In this document: piece by piece, positions 3,855 through 22,437 of the stretch | Position numbering within the stretch: the stretch's first letter is position 1 | Layout: each line of letters opens with the position of its first letter | From: Gemmatimonadota bacterium | Lineage (GTDB): Bacteria; Gemmatimonadota; Gemmatimonadetes; Longimicrobiales; Gaopeijiaceae | Assembly: GCA_028874985.1 (NCBI GenBank) | Contig: JAPPGI010000213.1 | Location: forward strand, 1 to 32,544 | Direction: 5' to 3' | Length of the DNA stretch: 32,544 nt | Position numbers and translations under genes: made by a program | The notes under the pieces: model-generated | Database searches by the model: none | The model's input: the letters and a program-made list of their open reading frames with translations, nothing else | Told to the model about the DNA's origin: nothing

Positions 3855-4901
3855 TCAGGGGGAGGGCGGATCGTCGTCCTCGGGCTCCAGGTATTCGATG
3901 CGCGGCACCTCCAGCTCGCCGGCGATGATCGCCTGCCGCGCCTCGTCTATGCGGGCCAGCGCCTCGGGCGGGATCACCCCCTCCTGCGCTGGGTTGGGGA
4001 CGAACTCCACCGCGCCGACGCGCAGTCCCGCGTACTCGGCCACGCCGCCCAGGGTCCCGTCCCGCCAGGCTGTCGCCGTCCTGAGGAACATGGCCGGGAT
4101 GTTGATCACCGCGCTGCCCACGATCACGTCGGGGGCCACGTCGTTCTGGTCGCGGTTCATGCCGAAGGCCCACGCCTCGCTTCCCCCTTCGCGGGCTTCG
4201 CGCACAGCCTGGAAGAAGCCGAAGCTGGCGGCGTCCAGGTTGTGGATCAGCACGTCGGCGCCCTGGCGCAGCTGGGCGGCCGCGGCCTCCTTGGCGGCGG
4301 AGGGGTCGTACCAGTCGCCGGTGAAGGTCTCCAGCACGGCCGCGTCGGCGCGCACCGCCTTCACGCCCGCCTCGAAGGCCACGAAGGTGCCCTTCGCCGT
4401 GGGGATCTCGACGCCCCCGACCATGCCCACGATCCCGGCCGCGGTGACGGCCCCCGCGGCCATCCCGGCCAGGTAGGACGCCTCGTTTAGGTGGAAGAGC
4501 AGCGGCACCACGTTCGCCGACGGCCGCGACCCCCCGGAGACCACGAAGGTGACGTCCGGGTACTGTTCGCCCGCCCGGCTCGCCGCGTCCTGGTACTCGA
4601 AGCCGTGCCCGAAGATGAGGCCGTAGCCGTCTTCCGCGTACGAGATGAAGGCCTCGTCGAACTCGGCGGGGGTGCGGGTCTGCTGGTGGGAGACCTCGAA
4701 GCCGAGGGAGTCGCCGATGAGCTGCAGGCCCTCGTAGGCGCCGGCGTGCCAGCCCGCGTCGCTGACCGGGCCGGAGGTGAGGAGGGCGACGTGGGGGGTG
4801 GGGGGGTCGGTCGCCGGGACGTCGTCCTGCTTGCGGTCGACGTTGCATGCGAGGGTGGCGAGGAGGGCGAGGAGGGTGGCGGTGGTGGGGGGGTGGTTCA
4901 T
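3855..4901 (-). CDS. BMP-family substrate-binding lipoprotein
   Basis: Solute-binding protein of the BMP/Med (PnrA-like) family, 348 residues, first gene of the importer operon. The N-terminus is a short signal ending LLATLAC, with Cys19 as the likely lipidated residue; threonine at -3 is not the classic lipobox leucine. Family features follow in order: VALLTSGPVSDAGW (38-51), a GLIFGHGFEY segment near 95-104, the SYLAGMAAG helix near 143 and a TFTGDWYDP segment near 190-200. The C-terminus is an acidic/proline tail (EPEDDDPPSP). The start is ATG at 4901, with AGGA about ten bases upstream. The 52-base gap to the ATPase implies one transcript. Ligand unknown; nucleosides are the family norm. 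Confidence 0.9.
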   Translation of the reverse strand: MNHPPTTATLLALLATLACNVDRKQDDVPATDPPTPHVALLTSGPVSDAGWHAGAYEGLQLIGDSLGFEVSHQQTRTPAEFDEAFISYAEDGYGLIFGHGFEYQDAASRAGEQYPDVTFVVSGGSRPSANVVPLLFHLNEASYLAGMAAGAVTAAGIVGMVGGVEIPTAKGTFVAFEAGVKAVRADAAVLETFTGDWYDPSAAKEAAAAQLRQGADVLIHNLDAASFGFFQAVREAREGGSEAWAFGMNRDQNDVAPDVIVGSAVINIPAMFLRTATAWRDGTLGGVAEYAGLRVGAVEFVPNPAQEGVIPPEALARIDEARQAIIAGELEVPRIEYLEPEDDDPPSP

Positions 4902-5407
4902 GGTGCGTGGTCCTGATGGGGGAGGGGGGGTGGGCGACCACGGGGATCGGACCGGATGGTGGGAAAGATACCATGGCGGGCGGGTTGGTGGAGTTGCAGG
5001 CGACGTGCTCCCCGGGGATGGACCATCGGTATGTCCGCCGGGTCACATCCCGCCTGACGGGAAGCGACCGGCAGGCCACCGGGCATCCTGCACAATCGGG
5101 AAGGCCTTCTGTCCCCCGACCACCGCAAGCCGTTGCGACAACCGACGTTAGGTCCATCGGGGATGGGAGGTTATCTTTTCCGGTTCCGACTGCCGGCCAA
5201 CCGCGGCATCCGAATCCCAGACCAGCCCGTAGTGGGGGTTGACACGACGATGGCTTTCGAGTGTACCCCGACGCTTAGAGTGGAAAGCGCTCGACCGGTC
5301 TCCTTCCCGGAGTGTCCGTCACGGCCTGACGCCCACTCCCGGCGCTCTCGCGCCCGCGGCCGCTCCATTCGACGCCCGGCGGCCACGGACACTGCGAGGA
5401 GCAGGTG
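4902..5407. other. Divergent intergenic region
   Basis: About 500 bases lie between the divergent importer operon and the P450 operon, and should hold promoters for both. I see no convincing gene. The first 80 bases are a G-rich run. On the minus strand TATCTT (4970 to 4965) could be a -10 box for the importer, but it lacks a good -35. No purine-riboswitch-like structure was recognised. Confidence 0.6.
5239..5267 (+). promoter_or_regulatory. Candidate sigma-70-like promoter for the P450 operon
   Basis: A perfect -35 hexamer TTGACA (5239-5244) is followed by a 17-base spacer and a weak -10, TGTACC (5262-5267). It lies about 140 bases before the GPP34-P450 start on the same strand. The -35 and spacing are good. 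The -10 matches the consensus poorly. Confidence 0.35.
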
Positions 5408-7486
5408 GTGAGTCCAGCCACGCCGCCGCCCATGAAGGCGGCGTGGAGGTCGCGGTCGGCGCTCAGATTCGCCGAAGAACTGATTCTCCTTCTGCTCGAC
5501 AAGGACACCGGGGCGCTCACCCCGGTTCCGGATCGGTCGCTGCGGTGCGCGCTGGCCGGGGCCGTGCTGATGGACTTGGCGCTGGAGGACCGCATCGACA
5601 CCGATCCCGGGCGCCTCTTCCTGGTCGATTCGACCCCGGTCGGCGATGACCTGCTCGATCCCTGCCTGAGATTGATCGCTCGCACCACCGAGACCCGGGA
5701 CACGGCCCACTGGATCGACCGCCTGGCCGAAGCGGCGCATGCGGACCAGGTGCGGAGGAGGGCGTTCGACCGTCTGGTTGAGCGGGGCATCGTGGAGCCG
5801 GAGACGGAGGGACTGTTCTCGGTGACGCGCAGGGTCGTCCGCTCGCGCCGGTATCCACACGTGGACGGCGAAGCCGAGCGTGAAGTCGAGCTGCGCGTCA
5901 TGACCGTTCTCTTCTCCGAGGAGATCCCGGCGCCCCGGGATGTCATGTTGATCGCGCTCGTGAACGCATGCGGGATCTTCGGACGGTTGCTCTCGCCCGT
6001 GGAAATGGCCGAGGTCGGGAACCGACTCGAACTCATCTGCAAGATGGATCTGATCGCCCGAACGGTCTTTGCGGCAATACGCAAGGCCGGCGGTCCCGGC
6101 GTCGAGTCCGTTCGCGGGCGGCGCGGCCCGGACATGGGCTCTCCCGCGGATAGAGCGCGGGCGCTGGCCGCCATCCCCCTGGCCGACGGGGGCGGACTGC
6201 CGCTGGTGGGCAACGCGTTCAGCCTGACGGGAGATCCGATACGCTACCTCGCCCGGCAGTACAGGGAGCTTGGCCCGGTCTTTCGTCTCCGGGCATTGTC
6301 GCACCGCTTTACGGTCCTCGCCGGGCCCGAGGCCAACCTGTTCCTCCAGCGCCACGGCAGGCTGCACCTTCGCAACGTCGACTTCTACGGCACCCTCGCG
6401 TGGGCGCTCGGTGGCCACCGGCAGGTCCTCGGGATGGACGGCGCCGAGCATTTCCGCCTCCGCAAGGTCCTGGCGAGAGGCTATTCGCGCCGGTACGCGC
6501 TCGACCGAATGGATGAAGCGGTCGGAATCGTGGCGCGCGACATGGACGATCTGCCCCAACGAACGCCGGTGGCGGCGTTGCCGATTCTGCAGCGCGTCAT
6601 CAGCAAACAGATAGGAACTCTCTGCACCGGTGTACGGCCGGACGAGTATCTGGACGACCTCGTCAAGTACGTTGACACGATGCTGGCCGTCCTCACGCTG
6701 CGCCGCCCGCGGTTCATGCTGCGCACACCGGGCATGCGCCGTGCGTGGACCCGGTTGGAGGCCTTGTGTGAGCTCATCCTGAAGTCGGCCGAAGCCGAGG
6801 GAGACCGCGAGCCGGATCTCGTCGACGATGTGCTGGCCCTGCACCGGGCCGATCCGCAGTTCCTGCCCGAAACGGATCTCGCACCGGCCTGCCTCGGACC
6901 GTTCATCGCCGGCCTGCACACCGAGGCGAGTGTCGCCACATGCATGCTGTACGAGCTGCTCAGGCACCCCGCAACGATGGCGCGGATGCAACGGGAAGCG
7001 GACGACCTCTTCGCCGCCGGCGGCCCCACGGCCCGGAAACTCCAGGCGATGGACGTCACTCACCGCGTGGGGATGGAGACCCTGCGGCTCTATCGAGTCG
7101 CACCCGTTCAGGTGCGGACGGTCGTCAACGCCTTCGAATTCGCCGGGTTTCCGATTCCGGCCGGCACGATGGTCATGTTCGCCACCACCATACCCCATGT
7201 CCTGCCGGAACATTTCCCCGAACCGGAGCGGTTCGACATCGGCCGCTACGCGCCGGAACGTGCCGAACACAGAGTGCCGGGAGTGTACGCGCCCTTCGGG
7301 ATGGGGACCCACAGGTGCCTGGGCAGCGGCTTCGCGGAGGTCAGCCTGACCCTGACCCTGGCGACCATGCTCCACCGGGCCGAGATCACGATGCATCCGC
7401 CGAACTACACGCTGAAGATGGGCTATTCGCCGCTGCCGGCCCCGAAATCCGGCTTCAAGATCGTCATTGCCCGCCGCCGGCGATGA
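5408..7486 (+). CDS. GPP34 (GOLPH3-like) domain fused to CYP51-like cytochrome P450
   Basis: A fusion of about 692 residues. Residues ~18-226 look like the GPP34/GOLPH3 family, all helical: FAEELILLLLDKDTG at 22-36, LVERGIVEP at 124-132, PRDVMLIALVNACGIF at 177-192, then a final helix ending VFAAIRK. The remainder is a complete P450: PLVGN (266-270), I-helix AGLHT (502-506), ExxR as ETLR (558-561) and heme loop FGMGTHRCLG (631-640) with ligand Cys638. Histidine before the I-helix threonine is typical of CYP51 (AGxHT). A linker at ~227-255 joins the halves. GTG codons at 5405 and 5408 are both possible; AGGAG at 5397-5401 gives better spacing to 5408 (residues are numbered from the 5405 codon). 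In eukaryotes GOLPH3 binds phosphoinositide membranes and retains enzymes, so a membrane-tethering role is inferred. The substrate is unknown, and no redox partner is nearby. Confidence 0.85.
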   Translation: MSPATPPPMKAAWRSRSALRFAEELILLLLDKDTGALTPVPDRSLRCALAGAVLMDLALEDRIDTDPGRLFLVDSTPVGDDLLDPCLRLIARTTETRDTAHWIDRLAEAAHADQVRRRAFDRLVERGIVEPETEGLFSVTRRVVRSRRYPHVDGEAEREVELRVMTVLFSEEIPAPRDVMLIALVNACGIFGRLLSPVEMAEVGNRLELICKMDLIARTVFAAIRKAGGPGVESVRGRRGPDMGSPADRARALAAIPLADGGGLPLVGNAFSLTGDPIRYLARQYRELGPVFRLRALSHRFTVLAGPEANLFLQRHGRLHLRNVDFYGTLAWALGGHRQVLGMDGAEHFRLRKVLARGYSRRYALDRMDEAVGIVARDMDDLPQRTPVAALPILQRVISKQIGTLCTGVRPDEYLDDLVKYVDTMLAVLTLRRPRFMLRTPGMRRAWTRLEALCELILKSAEAEGDREPDLVDDVLALHRADPQFLPETDLAPACLGPFIAGLHTEASVATCMLYELLRHPATMARMQREADDLFAAGGPTARKLQAMDVTHRVGMETLRLYRVAPVQVRTVVNAFEFAGFPIPAGTMVMFATTIPHVLPEHFPEPERFDIGRYAPERAEHRVPGVYAPFGMGTHRCLGSGFAEVSLTLTLATMLHRAEITMHPPNYTLKMGYSPLPAPKSGFKIVIARRRR

Positions 7487-11488: not shown

Positions 11489-13699
11489 GTGAGCGACAAG
11501 GGACAATTGCCGGACGCTTGTCCGCCACTTGAGGGTCGAAGTGGCGGACAAAGTCCCTCCGGCGTCCCCCAGGTCCGGAAACGCCCGTCCGAGATCTCCT
11601 TCGGCGGCCGCGTCCTCTTCCTCGCGGACGACGCCGAACTGATCCGGCGGCAGCTCCACGATGGATTGGACCCGGAGTTGACGCCCGACCTCAAGGCCCT
11701 GCTCCGCGACCAGATCAGCACCGACGAGATCACGCCCGCCTACATCTGCTTTTTCTACGACGAGACGCTCGGCGAGTTCCCGTACCTGGGGCTGGAAGTG
11801 GCGAGCGTAAACGGCGGAGCCGAAGCGCCCATCGAACGCGGCACCGTGAAGGCGGGCGGCTTCGTGTGTTCGGTGGCGGGGAAGCGGCGGGGCAAGGGGT
11901 CGAGCCGCGAACAGAGCCCGTACGCGGAGTTGATGGCGGGGATACGGGTCGTCGTCAGCGAGAGCATCGAGCGCATCTACAACGAGAACTGCCAGAACCT
12001 GGGCATTCTCACCACGACCGACTTCGGCCTCATCGACCGGATCCGCTCCGGGGAGCCGATCCCTCTGAGCGAGTTCACGGCGGGGACGGACGACATCACG
12101 CGGCAGATCATCGAGTACGGGGGGCTGTTCGAGTTCAACATGGCGCGGCTGGCGGGCCAGGTGACGCTCCCGCCGCCGCGGGCGGAGGGAGGGAATCCCG
12201 CAGGCGGCACGGGGATGCCGCCGGCCGTCGCGCCGAACGGGCGGCCGGACGACGCCCGTCGCGCTTCTTCCCCCCACCCCATGACCCTCGGCGAGAAGAT
12301 CTTCGCGCGGAAATGGGTCGTGGACGCCGCCGAAGGTCGCATCGGCACCGCGTCGACCGAACCGGGCGAGGCCGGCTTCTTCCGCACCGACATCCGGTTT
12401 TCACACGAGTACGTGACCCCGATGGCCGCCATCTTCTTCGAGCAGAAGCTGGGGGCCGACGCCAAGGTCCTTGACCCGGACTCGATCCTCTTCTTCCGCG
12501 ATCACCTGACCTTTCTGCACAAGGTGATGAGCCAGGAGCGGATCGAGCAGGGGCTGCTGGCGGTCGCCAACGAGCTGGAGGTCAAGCAGCGGGAGTTTTC
12601 GGAGAAGCAGGGGATCCGGTTGTACGGGGAGCAGCAGGGCCACGTGATGGGGTCCGAGGCGATCTGCCACTCGAAGATCCTGGAGGACTACGCCGAGCCC
12701 GGTATGCTCATCATCGGGACCGATTCGCACACGCCGCACGCGGGCGCGGTCGGGGCGCTGGCCTTCGGGGTGGGCACCACGGCGATCTTCAACTCGTGGA
12801 TCACGAAGGACGTGCGGGCGCGGATCCCGCCGTCGTTCAAGGTGGTGGTGGACGGGACGCTGCCTGCGAACTGCACCGCGAAGGACCTCATGCTGGAGAT
12901 CCTGCGGCATCCGTACGTGCGCGACGGGCACGCGATCGGGCAGATCGTCGAGTACGCGGGGCCGGTCGTGGAGCGCCTGAGCGTGGACGAGCGCGCCACG
13001 ATGACGAACATGGCGGCCGAGGTGGGAGCCTTCACCGGGCTGGTCGCGGCGGACGAGCGGACGGTCGAGTTCCTCGTGCAGGAGAGGGGGATGGACGAGG
13101 GGCGCGCGCGGGCGCTGGTGGAAGGGGTGTACAGCGACCCGGGCGCCGGGTACGTCAAGGTGATCGAGATCGACGCTTCGCGGCTGCGGCCGATGGTGGC
13201 GCTGCCGGGGGATCCGGGGAACGGGCTCTACATCGACGAGCTGGCGGAGCCGGTGGAGATCGAGATCGCGTATGCGGGGTCGTGCACGGCGGGCAAGAAG
13301 GAGGACATGGACATGTACGCCCGGGTCTTCCGCGAGGCGTGGGAGGGGGAGGGGCGGGGGGTGCATCCGGGGGTGAAGTGCTACATCCAGTGTGGGTCGA
13401 TGGACGTGCGGGAGTACGCGCGGGAACGGGGGTATCTGGATCTGTTCAGCGCGATCGGGGCCGAGTTCATCGAGCCGGGATGCGGCGCGTGCATCGCGGC
13501 CGGGCCGGGGATCACGCGCACCGCCGAGCAGGTGTCGGTGTCGTCGCAGAACCGGAACTTCCCGGGGCGCAGCGGGCCGGGGCGGCTTTATCTGGTGTCG
13601 CCCTATTCGGTGGCCGCGTCGGCGGTGGCGGGTCGGGTGGTGGGGTGGGGGCGGGGGGGGTCTAACCTGACTCGTATCGGAAAGCGGGGTGGGAAATGA
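11489..13699 (+). CDS. Aconitase-family hydratase with N-terminal swivel domain
   Basis: A 736-residue 4Fe-4S hydro-lyase with domains in AcnB-like order. The LeuD-like swivel domain comes first (~40-225: ISTDEITPA at 76-84, GSSRE at 137-141, YNENCQNLGIL at 164-174). The three-domain catalytic part follows (~265-715: DSHT at 412-415, then ALAFGVGTT). Cluster ligands are Cys599 (GSCTAGK), Cys665 and Cys668 (GCGAC), with SSQNRNFPGR at 685-694. AcnB's HEAT domain is absent. The closest reaction class is aconitate or isopropylmalate-type dehydration; the exact substrate is unknown. The GTG start has GGAGG about 11 bases upstream. Residues 2-30 carry an inverted repeat and look unlike a protein fold, so the true start may differ, although I see no ATG/GTG between there and residue 40. 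The stop overlaps the next gene as ATGA. Confidence 0.85.
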   Translation: MSDKGQLPDACPPLEGRSGGQSPSGVPQVRKRPSEISFGGRVLFLADDAELIRRQLHDGLDPELTPDLKALLRDQISTDEITPAYICFFYDETLGEFPYLGLEVASVNGGAEAPIERGTVKAGGFVCSVAGKRRGKGSSREQSPYAELMAGIRVVVSESIERIYNENCQNLGILTTTDFGLIDRIRSGEPIPLSEFTAGTDDITRQIIEYGGLFEFNMARLAGQVTLPPPRAEGGNPAGGTGMPPAVAPNGRPDDARRASSPHPMTLGEKIFARKWVVDAAEGRIGTASTEPGEAGFFRTDIRFSHEYVTPMAAIFFEQKLGADAKVLDPDSILFFRDHLTFLHKVMSQERIEQGLLAVANELEVKQREFSEKQGIRLYGEQQGHVMGSEAICHSKILEDYAEPGMLIIGTDSHTPHAGAVGALAFGVGTTAIFNSWITKDVRARIPPSFKVVVDGTLPANCTAKDLMLEILRHPYVRDGHAIGQIVEYAGPVVERLSVDERATMTNMAAEVGAFTGLVAADERTVEFLVQERGMDEGRARALVEGVYSDPGAGYVKVIEIDASRLRPMVALPGDPGNGLYIDELAEPVEIEIAYAGSCTAGKKEDMDMYARVFREAWEGEGRGVHPGVKCYIQCGSMDVREYARERGYLDLFSAIGAEFIEPGCGACIAAGPGITRTAEQVSVSSQNRNFPGRSGPGRLYLVSPYSVAASAVAGRVVGWGRGGSNLTRIGKRGGK
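11518..11551. repeat. Perfect 13-base inverted repeat inside the aconitase-like gene start
   Basis: Arms TTGTCCGCCACTT (11518-11530) and its exact complement (11539-11551) flank an 8-base loop. Further complementary pieces lie outside: GGGAC at 11500-11504 with GTCCC at 11553-11557, and a GGACGC/GCGTCC pair beyond. It sits 29 bases after the GTG start, so it could fold in the mRNA and block early translation, or it may be a dispersed palindromic element. Confidence 0.7.
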
Positions 13700-14826
13700 G
13701 GTCATTCCAGGTTGTCGTGTTGTTGACGCTGGCCGTTGCGCTTTCGGCAGCAGCCCCGGTCACCGGCGGCGCCCAGACGATCGTGGAGATCGACGACCGC
13801 ATCGCCTGCCCGAATTGCTTCATCGAGGCGGGCCCGTCCATGACGCTCGCCGCCCCCGCGGATCGCTTTTCGTTCACGAGTTTCCCCGGCATCAACGTCG
13901 CCCGCGACAGACAGGGGAATTACATCACGGCTCCGGTTGTGGGTGACGCGCTGGTGGCGGTTTTCGGCCCGGACGGCGGGTACAGGGCATCGTACGGAAG
14001 GATCGGAAGGGGACCGGGTGAATTCGCATCCGACTATCCGCTGATTGTCGAGGTCGGAGAAGACGATGTCCTGTACGCGGTCGATCCGGTTCAAGTCCAC
14101 ACGCTCGCACCGCTGGCCGCAAGCCGCCTGAACCAGGTTCGCCTCCCCTTCCAGGTGACGGACGTGGTGGCCCTCGGGGACGCTATCGCGGTTCAGGCCA
14201 CGGTGCGCACGGAGGCTGGAACCATCACGGTCCAGATTCTCCGGCCCGACGGGACGGTGGAGACGAGCATCGGAGCGACCGGGGCGGACGGAGAGCCGTT
14301 GCAGCCGGGCATGGTCCGGCGCGTCCTGGGGCGGTCGAACGATGGCACCGATTTCTGGAGTGCCCACGTCCTGCGGTACCGCATGTCCAGGTACGGGCGT
14401 GATGGAGAGGAGAGGACACGCATCGACCGCGTCTCCGATTGGTTCCCGCCGCGTTCCACCATCGAGCCGGGAGCCCCGTTCCAGGTACCCGCAAACCCGG
14501 GCGTATCGGGCATTCACCAGGATGGGGACGGGCTGCTCTGGGTCGTGACCACGCGGGCCCCGCGTTCCTTCAAGCCGCTTGGCGGTGGACGGGCATCAGG
14601 CTCCGAGATGCCGCTGAGTTCCTACATGGACATGAATCGATTCCTACACACCACGGTGGAGGTGCTAGATCCGGTCGCAGGGGAACTCGTTTCCAGCCGT
14701 GACTTCGATGAGTTCGTCCAATTGGTGAGTACGCCGGGCGACGACGTGTTCGTGTTCGCGCTTCGCCCCGATGCGCTCGGCAGCTTCGATTGCGTGGTGA
14801 CGCCGCTGAAGCTGCGGCGGGAGTGA
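13696..14826 (+). CDS. Secreted six-bladed beta-propeller-like protein
   Basis: A 376-residue exported protein. It has a signal peptide (residues 1-26, cleavage likely after GGAQ) followed by repeats of short beta blades. NHL/6-bladed type sequences include VFGPDGGYRASYGRIGRG (~90-107) followed by PGEF, and a GISGI-like QDGDGLLWV strand near 275. Such propellers are abundant in Gemmatimonadota and Bacteroidota and mostly uncharacterised; binding of a ligand or protein partner is the usual guess. Two cysteines (CPNC, ~34-37) follow the signal and could form a disulfide. The ATG overlaps the aconitase stop (ATGA), an odd pairing of a cytoplasmic enzyme with an exported protein. Confidence 0.75.
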   Translation: MRSFQVVVLLTLAVALSAAAPVTGGAQTIVEIDDRIACPNCFIEAGPSMTLAAPADRFSFTSFPGINVARDRQGNYITAPVVGDALVAVFGPDGGYRASYGRIGRGPGEFASDYPLIVEVGEDDVLYAVDPVQVHTLAPLAASRLNQVRLPFQVTDVVALGDAIAVQATVRTEAGTITVQILRPDGTVETSIGATGADGEPLQPGMVRRVLGRSNDGTDFWSAHVLRYRMSRYGRDGEERTRIDRVSDWFPPRSTIEPGAPFQVPANPGVSGIHQDGDGLLWVVTTRAPRSFKPLGGGRASGSEMPLSSYMDMNRFLHTTVEVLDPVAGELVSSRDFDEFVQLVSTPGDDVFVFALRPDALGSFDCVVTPLKLRRE

Positions 14827-20750: not shown

Positions 20751-21815
20751 TCACCCGGCGACGACGACTCGCCCCGCCGCCCCCCCCGTCACCTCCCCCA
20801 CGACGACGGCGGCATCTCCCGCGCGATCCAGCGTCCACAGCAGCCCGGCCGTCCGCTCCGGCGGACACGCGATCAACAACCCCCCCGAGGTCTGCGCGTC
20901 CGCCAGCAACAGCTGAACCGTCTCGGACACCTCGCCCTCGACCGCAACGCTCCCGGCCCCGTCCGCCCGGTTCCGCCGAGTCCCCCCCGGCACGAACCCC
21001 GCCTCCACCAGCCCCCCCACCCCCTCCAGCATCGGCACCCTGCCGGCCTCGATCCGCGCCGCCACCCCGGAGGCGCGAGCCATGATCCCCAGATGCCCCG
21101 TCAGCCCGTACCCGGTCACATCCGTGGCGGCATGCGCGCCGACCTCCATGGCCGCCTCCGCCGCCCCGCGGTTCAGCCTCGCCATCGATTCGACGGCCGC
21201 CGCCAGCAACCCCGGCGGACACTTCCCCGCCTTGACCGCCGTGGCCACGATCCCCGTACCGATCGGCTTGGTCAGCACCAGGTGGTCCCCGGGTCGTGCC
21301 CCGTCGTTGGCGAGCATCGCGTCCGGGTCGACATCCCCCACCGCGACCATCCCGTACTTGGGCTCGGCGTCGTCGATGGAGTGGCCGCCCAGCACCGGGA
21401 TTCCCGCCTCGGCGGCCTTCTCGGCGCCGCCCCGGACGATCTCCTCGGCCAGGCCCTCGTCCAGCAACCCGCGCGGAAAGGAGAGCAGGTTGAGCGCGAA
21501 GAGCGGCCGCCCCCCCATGGCGTAGACGTCCGAGAGCGCGTTGGCGGCCGCGATCCGGCCGAAGTCGTACGGGTCGTCGACTATGGGTGTGAAAAAGTCG
21601 AGGGTGACCACCAGGGCCCGGCCGTCGGCGAGACGGTACACGGCGGCGTCGTCCCCGGTGCTGGCGTCGACGAGCACGCGGGGGTCGGCGGAGGGGAGGA
21701 GGGGGCGCAGGACCTGCGCCAGCTCGGCCTGGCCGAGTTTACACGCTCACCCGGCGCCGTGGGACAGGGTGCTGAGCCTGATCCGCGGTTTCTGGTCGTG
21801 AGGTTCGGTGGTCAT
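20751..21815 (-). CDS. selD: Selenide, water dikinase with in-frame UGA selenocysteine
   Basis: SelD makes selenophosphate from selenide and ATP for selenocysteine and seleno-tRNA synthesis. The full frame is 354 residues from ATG 21815 (MTTEPHDQKPRIRLSTLSHG) if TGA at 21749-21747 (codon 23) is read as selenocysteine: the active site is then SHGAG-U-ACKL, matching the family GAG(C/U)xCK with Lys26 as the essential lysine. Normal SelD features follow: TGDDAAVY (52-59), ALSDVYAMGG, VLGGHSI and ATDVTGYGLTGHLG. Without readthrough only a fragment from GTG 21677 lacking the active site remains. A hairpin just after the UGA fits a bacterial SECIS. The rest of the machinery (SelA, SelB, selC tRNA) must lie outside the window. 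Confidence 0.9.
21716..21746 (-). promoter_or_regulatory. Putative bacterial SECIS hairpin in selD mRNA
   Basis: Directly 3' of the selD UGA in the mRNA, CUCGGC and GCCGAG form a perfect 6-bp stem around a CAG loop. An outer GCGU/GCGC stem is possible. The apical loop starts 15 bases after the UGA, at the edge of the range usual for bacterial SECIS elements, and contains a G. SelB binding is inferred, not shown. Confidence 0.6.
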
Positions 21816-21821
21816 GGATCA

Positions 21822-21902
21822 AGCTAACACGGCATCCGGGGGGCAGTGGGGGACGAGGAGCCGTCAGCAGTCTCCCGGCGTCAGGATGGGCCGTTCGGCG
21901 AG
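21822..21902. repeat. 81-base direct repeat, copy 1
   Basis: It aligns without gaps to copy 2 (22432-22512) at 64 of 81 positions by hand. A central block, GGGGACGAGGAGCCGTCAGC plus AGTC, is identical. On the minus strand it reads ERPILTPGDC then stop, the same protein end as the 796-residue gene (ERPILAPGDC), with mostly synonymous differences. It is therefore the orphan 3' tail of a paralogue, not a fresh target duplication. Confidence 0.75.
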
Positions 21903-22011
21903 AAACTCTGACCATACACGGGGAGGGGATACCGGAGCTTCGCAGGTCCGGCAAGCCGATCGAGGCCGTCGATCTCCAGGACGTTCTGGATGCGCACCGG
22001 CGCAAATCCCC

Positions 22012-22437
22012 ATGACGGGCCGCCTGATCGCGGTGGCCAACGGCCGGCTTCTCGGCGAGATCACGCGTGACACCGGAGGGCGGCTCAGCTTCACATACGA
22101 CGCTGCGTGGCGCTCCGACGACACGGCATACCCGCCGTCCCTCTCGATGCCGCTGACAGCCTCGGGGCACGGTCGCGACAGGATCGAACCATGGCTTTGG
22201 GGGCTCCTCCCCGACAACGAGAACGTGCTGGCCCGTTGGGCGAGGAGGTTCCAGGTGTCGGGGCGCAGCGTGTTCTCGCTGCTGAGTGCGACCGGAGAGG
22301 ACTGCCCGGGGGCGGTTCAGTTCGCCCGGCCGGAGCGTGCCGGTCGTCTCCTGGGATCGGGACCCCGTGAGGTCGTCTGGTTGACGACCGCGAACGTCGA
22401 GGCGCGTCTGCGTACTCTGCGGAACGACAACAGCTAA
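22012..22437 (+). pseudogene. HipA toxin N-terminal fragment
   Basis: A 141-codon frame matching the N-terminal (Couple_hipA) domain of HipA kinases: RLIAVANGRLLGEITRD, PPSLSMPLTASG, PWLWGLLPDNENVLARWARR, then GEDCPGAVQF. HipA proteins are normally ~400-440 residues and phosphorylate GltX through a C-terminal kinase domain, which is absent: the frame stops where copy 2 of the 81-base repeat begins. The ATG overlaps the stop of a short upstream frame (LRRSGKPIEAVDLQDVLDAH, then RRKSP), perhaps the end of the partner antitoxin, as ATGA. Almost certainly kinase-dead; some organisms encode this domain as a separate protein, so a residual binding role is conceivable. Confidence 0.7.

Follow-up and report, generated by a model that had tools for sequence, protein, structure and literature searches.

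The window, i.e., the whole stretch of 32,544 nucleotides that was analysed, is one contig (C89) of a Gemmatimonadota draft genome of 4.25 Mb (230 contigs, 95% complete). It carries on its minus strand (21815-20751) the selD gene for selenide, water dikinase (selenophosphate synthetase, SelD), a frame of 354 residues excluding the stop. The start of this frame translates as MTTEPHDQKPRIRLSTLSHGAG-U-ACKLGQAELAQVLRPLLP..., where U denotes an internal TGA at codon 23 (21749-21747, minus strand) within the motif SHGAG-U-ACKL. The terminal stop (20753-20751) is likewise TGA, and another in-frame TGA shuts the frame two codons ahead of the ATG at 21815, such that this ATG is the natural start of selD. 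Standard ORF calling (table 11) reports merely 308 aa for the gene, starting from a GTG at 21677 (20751-21677, minus strand) and missing the catalytic loop. This shorter ORF is an annotation artefact.

The assignment to the SelD family is clear. The product matches TIGR00476 as a full-length family domain with 386 bits (NCBIfam cut-off 125) and is also covered by both Pfam AIRS and AIRS_C. The comparison with a solved selenide, water dikinase (PDB 3u0o) yields an E-value of 7.5e-79 and aligns its SHGAGCGCKI under SHGAG-U-ACKL, i.e., the TGA falls on the catalytic Cys and is followed by the xCK/xSK pattern. An alignment with Sec- and Cys-type SelD proteins also puts the codon at the catalytic Cys/selenocysteine (Sec) position. 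The first-pass annotation had located an in-frame TGA at the catalytic site of SelD and an ATG 22 codons above it; the former is correct and corresponds to codon 23, and the latter is exact.

Three further frames, on the plus strand of the window, stand out. Directly upstream of selD and in divergent orientation to it, positions 21808-22437 encode a HipA N-terminal domain (PF13657); the frame stops at 22437 without a kinase domain and resembles either a fragment or a HipS-like partner that stands alone. An unusual combination of a GPP34 (Golgi phosphoprotein 3) domain and a cytochrome P450 shares one open frame at 5405-7486, followed by a sulfotransferase. Finally, an aconitase-family protein (11489-13699) shows the Aconitase_C match ahead of the catalytic-domain match, which reverses the usual order.

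Conservation of the TGA codon and its replacement by cysteine

SelD was searched for in 98 genomes that share the genus, family, order or class of the window's genome, and was found in 66 of them. The gene contains exactly one in-frame TGA in 59 genomes and none in the remaining 7. Residue 23 is encoded by TGA in all 59 TGA-type genes and by TGC in 7/7 others. Extending the comparison across phyla (110 loci), only three codons are observed at the catalytic position, namely TGA (70), TGC (26) and TGT (14). That is, the UGA is kept in orthologs and Cys codons are its sole replacement.

In a single genome, the same picture could arise from a sequencing error or from a selD gene that is dying by nonsense mutation, given that the assembly is a draft of 230 contigs and that a single base separates TGA from TGC/TGT. 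Conservation already refutes this explanation, to which we attach next to no probability: the identical TGA occurs in 59 genomes with an intact downstream frame, including the single- or two-contig assemblies G001, G021, G026, G044 and G047, and in a dying gene neither the TGA nor a stem-loop supported by synonymous codon choice (see below) would persist across families.

The same data bear on whether the TGA terminates translation, with a restart at the GTG at 21677 that would yield a SelD of 308 aa. The corresponding ORF is long and open and the greater part of the ATP-binding region is located downstream, but the short form would be devoid of the catalytic Cys/Sec and Lys. Furthermore, the region surrounding the TGA, which precedes the GTG, shows protein-level conservation across phyla, and LSHGAG-U-ACKL belongs to its best-conserved parts. 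We thus deem such a restart extremely improbable.

The presence of TGA in selD goes along with the presence of Sec genes. SelA is present in 58/59 TGA-SelD genomes (Fisher p 3e-15, 98 genomes, related genomes treated as independent) and tRNA-Sec in 54/59 (p 1e-11, same genomes and treatment), where only tRNA matches well above the level of Ser/Leu tRNAs were counted. The lone TGA-SelD genome without SelA (G024) is fragmented and 88% complete, and tRNA-Sec is present there. In five genomes (G014, G052, G064, G074, G085), some of which are incomplete, SelA and tRNA-Sec were found but SelD was not; either the assembly lacks the gene or these genomes rely on another selenium donor. As a side observation, a contig labelled Vicinamibacteraceae (L116) encodes a SelD start that is 97% identical to that of the window over 156 residues, and it is probably a mis-binned Gemmatimonadota contig.

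With regard to the Cys-type genes, the protein tree places the TGC-encoded SelD of G066 and G078, which belong to one genus, within the Sec clade on well-supported branches. Given this nesting, a Sec-to-Cys replacement in this genus is the simplest reading. The nesting is unaffected by one tree row (L073) that is labelled Sec though its codon is TGT; the 7 label changes on the tree are an unreliable count. Replacements of this kind in SelD form an already documented category (PMC13188914). In G078 (L174), a relic of the stem discussed below is well paired (0.875) and SelA is present. In G066 (L175), the stem is decayed (0.375) and SelA is not detectable, while a tRNA-Sec match remains. The genus thereby offers a clean natural comparison of Sec replaced by Cys.

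A predicted bSECIS stem-loop downstream of the UGA

A predicted bacterial SECIS element (bSECIS) is located 33 nt after the UGA (21704-21720, minus strand). Its stem of 7 bp pairs 21720-21714 with 21710-21704 and encloses the apical loop GUC (21713-21711); the element, GGCGCAG-GUC-CUGCGCC, folds at -12.1 kcal/mol and conforms to all four constraints published for bSECIS elements (PMC13188914). Neither the whole window nor a 181-base segment surrounding the UGA gives a SECIS match in Rfam. The local fold surpasses shuffled sequences by a small margin (z about -1.6), i.e., single-sequence folding does not discriminate. The argument for a SECIS is therefore comparative, not energetic.

To this end, we assessed the stem pairing among homologs (8-pair version of the stem). 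Across the 35 distinct TGA sequences from Gemmatimonadota it amounts to 95%, compared to a mean of 58% when synonymous codons are redrawn, and 0/500 redraws reach the observed value. When codons are swapped among close Gemmatimonadota relatives, 96/500 replicates reach the observed pairing, so this control is uninformative. For 25 TGA sequences from other phyla the pairing is 72%, which is reached by 0/500 replicates in either synonymous control. Here, one stem position shows the compensatory pairs G-C, C-G, U-A and A-U. The 40 Cys-type sequences, in contrast, pair to 49% with no clear excess over the control. The loop starts with GU in nearly all TGA genes, and those TGA homologs that are most distant have a displaced or weaker stem. 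Judged from these comparisons, the stem-loop is held by synonymous codon choice and covaries in TGA-type but not in Cys-type genes.

Selenocysteine machinery and further TGA-coded genes

The first-pass annotation had proposed that SelD is itself a selenoprotein and that the organism decodes UGA as Sec, and had named selA, selB and selC as the genes to look for, taking their absence as a refutation. All three are present in the genome, so the proposal withstands this check: selA is found on contig C129 (E-value 4e-127), selB on contig C48 as a full-length ORF of 638 aa (307 bits, cut-off 242), and a covariance model places tRNA-Sec at positions 1-91 of contig C47 with 71.1 bits (gathering score 47). 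The latter's anticodon loop, CTTCAAA, contains the anticodon UCA. The tRNA gene abuts the very start of its contig, where its first base was apparently lost, and ARAGORN calls no tRNA-Sec at this contig end. The three components that define the bacterial Sec trait, namely SelA, SelB and tRNA-Sec(UCA), are thus combined in one genome. Along with the conserved TGA, the bSECIS and the further TGA-coded genes described below, this machinery supports the earlier proposal.

These findings also bear on a decoding of the UGA as some other residue, e.g., Trp under a reassigned code, or a low-level read-through without Sec. SelD's own stop is TGA, the aligned residue in other sequences is always Cys and never Trp, and tRNA-Sec(UCA), SelA and SelB are all at hand, which leaves this explanation with a negligible probability.

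We also considered whether SelD serves selenouridine synthesis or is the only selenoprotein. For the former, no match to tRNA 2-selenouridine synthase (SelU/YbbB, TIGR03167) was obtained in the own genome or in 11 relatives, while one control genome scored above the cut-off, and the candidate was rejected. The latter was rejected given the TGA-coded genes for a formate dehydrogenase and two peroxiredoxin (Prx)-like proteins. In four relatives, a search with the molybdopterin family identified a formate dehydrogenase alpha subunit (FdhA) that contains one TGA. In the own genome, the gene is split over two contig ends (C87, L164, positions 1-269; C63, L165, positions 6-962), and ...NHIDNCSRA-U-HAPTVAGLAA lies at the C87 edge, while the gene is intact in relatives. 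A NuoE/NuoF-like subunit is apparently encoded upstream of FdhA in G021 (L166).

The AhpC/TSA search revealed two Prx-like genes with one TGA apiece on contig C179 (L169), namely RTRG-U-TVQ at 4541-4939 and FYRGHW-U-PYC at 14297-14698. Both are conserved in the two single-contig relatives G021 and G001; this conservation and their spacing of about 10 kb suggest a selenoprotein locus. A pairwise scan of the contig for shared in-frame TGAs was swamped by shadow frames, and the Prx-like pair alone was retained from it. SelD would thus be one of at least four TGA-coded selenoproteins of the genome, besides FdhA and the Prx-like pair. The presence of these further genes in turn argues that UGA is decoded as Sec and that SelD is not its sole client.

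Proposed role and comparison with known systems

Taken together, the in-frame UGA of selD is almost certainly read as selenocysteine. We are highly confident that the locus is best explained by a Sec-containing selenophosphate synthetase, in which SelB- and stem-loop-directed Sec at residue 23 would feed the synthesis of the protein itself. In the proposed mechanism, SelB carrying Sec-tRNA(UCA) would bind the stem-loop 33 nt past the UGA and thereby direct Sec insertion at residue 23 of SelD. The full-length protein, with Sec23 and the neighbouring Cys25 and Lys26, would then produce selenophosphate from selenide and ATP, which SelA would turn into Sec-tRNA. This would supply SelD itself as well as the formate dehydrogenase and the two peroxiredoxin-like selenoproteins. 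Insertion and catalysis, and with them a circular reliance of SelD on what it produces, are expected by homology; that SelB acts at the bSECIS and that SelD makes its own Sec donor would be in accordance with what is established for the family.

Since SelD would require Sec to be made in full length and a competing selenouridine pathway was not found, the conserved UGA might act in this lineage as a selenium-dependent positive-feedback switch. Below a selenium threshold, the stop at codon 23 would shut down the whole selenoprotein programme. UGA is strongly conserved throughout Gemmatimonadota even though Cys would do; this accords with such a switch but does not show it, and we consider the idea unlikely.

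The finding is mainly an annotation correction, as standard ORF calling truncates selD, which was previously missed. Beyond this, it presents the Gemmatimonadota lineage as a genuine Sec-decoding group in which Sec-SelD is fixed through several families and is accompanied by Sec forms of a formate dehydrogenase and of peroxiredoxin-like proteins. What is new here is a known kind of selenoprotein in a group for which no earlier report was found. Gemmatimonadota are not mentioned in the main text of any selenium survey examined, and a full-text literature search returned no paper evidently on selenoproteins of this group, as judged by titles and abstracts; since many journals lay outside the search, the evidence for a true absence is weak.

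SelD proteins with Sec form a textbook family, and SelD has long been known as its own client. In a reference set of prokaryotes, 19% of SelD genes are of the Sec type, always with Sec at the same position (PMC4561486), and Sec-SelD ranks among the commonest selenoproteins of marine metagenomes (PMC2398784). The latter also commonly contain Ndh-SelD fusions of the Cys type (PMC2398784). Such fusions share the SelD domain with the protein of the window but are longer and show CGGC/CKGC at the site, while the window encodes the unfused Sec form. Two distant Cys-type SelD sequences among the searched genomes, located in open frames of 859 aa (G033, L179) and 927 aa (G038, L180), are probably Ndh-SelD fusions. 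Cys-type SelD proteins, e.g., PDB 3u0o, agree with the window's SelD in family, as judged by sequence, and in the catalytic loop but differ in having Cys at the catalytic position and in not needing a bSECIS. The closest correspondence is to known Sec-SelD/SPS2 proteins, with which the window's SelD shares the same single Sec position, the flanking motif, the length and the single-domain architecture; the sole difference is the lineage (Gemmatimonadota), and nothing structural sets it apart.
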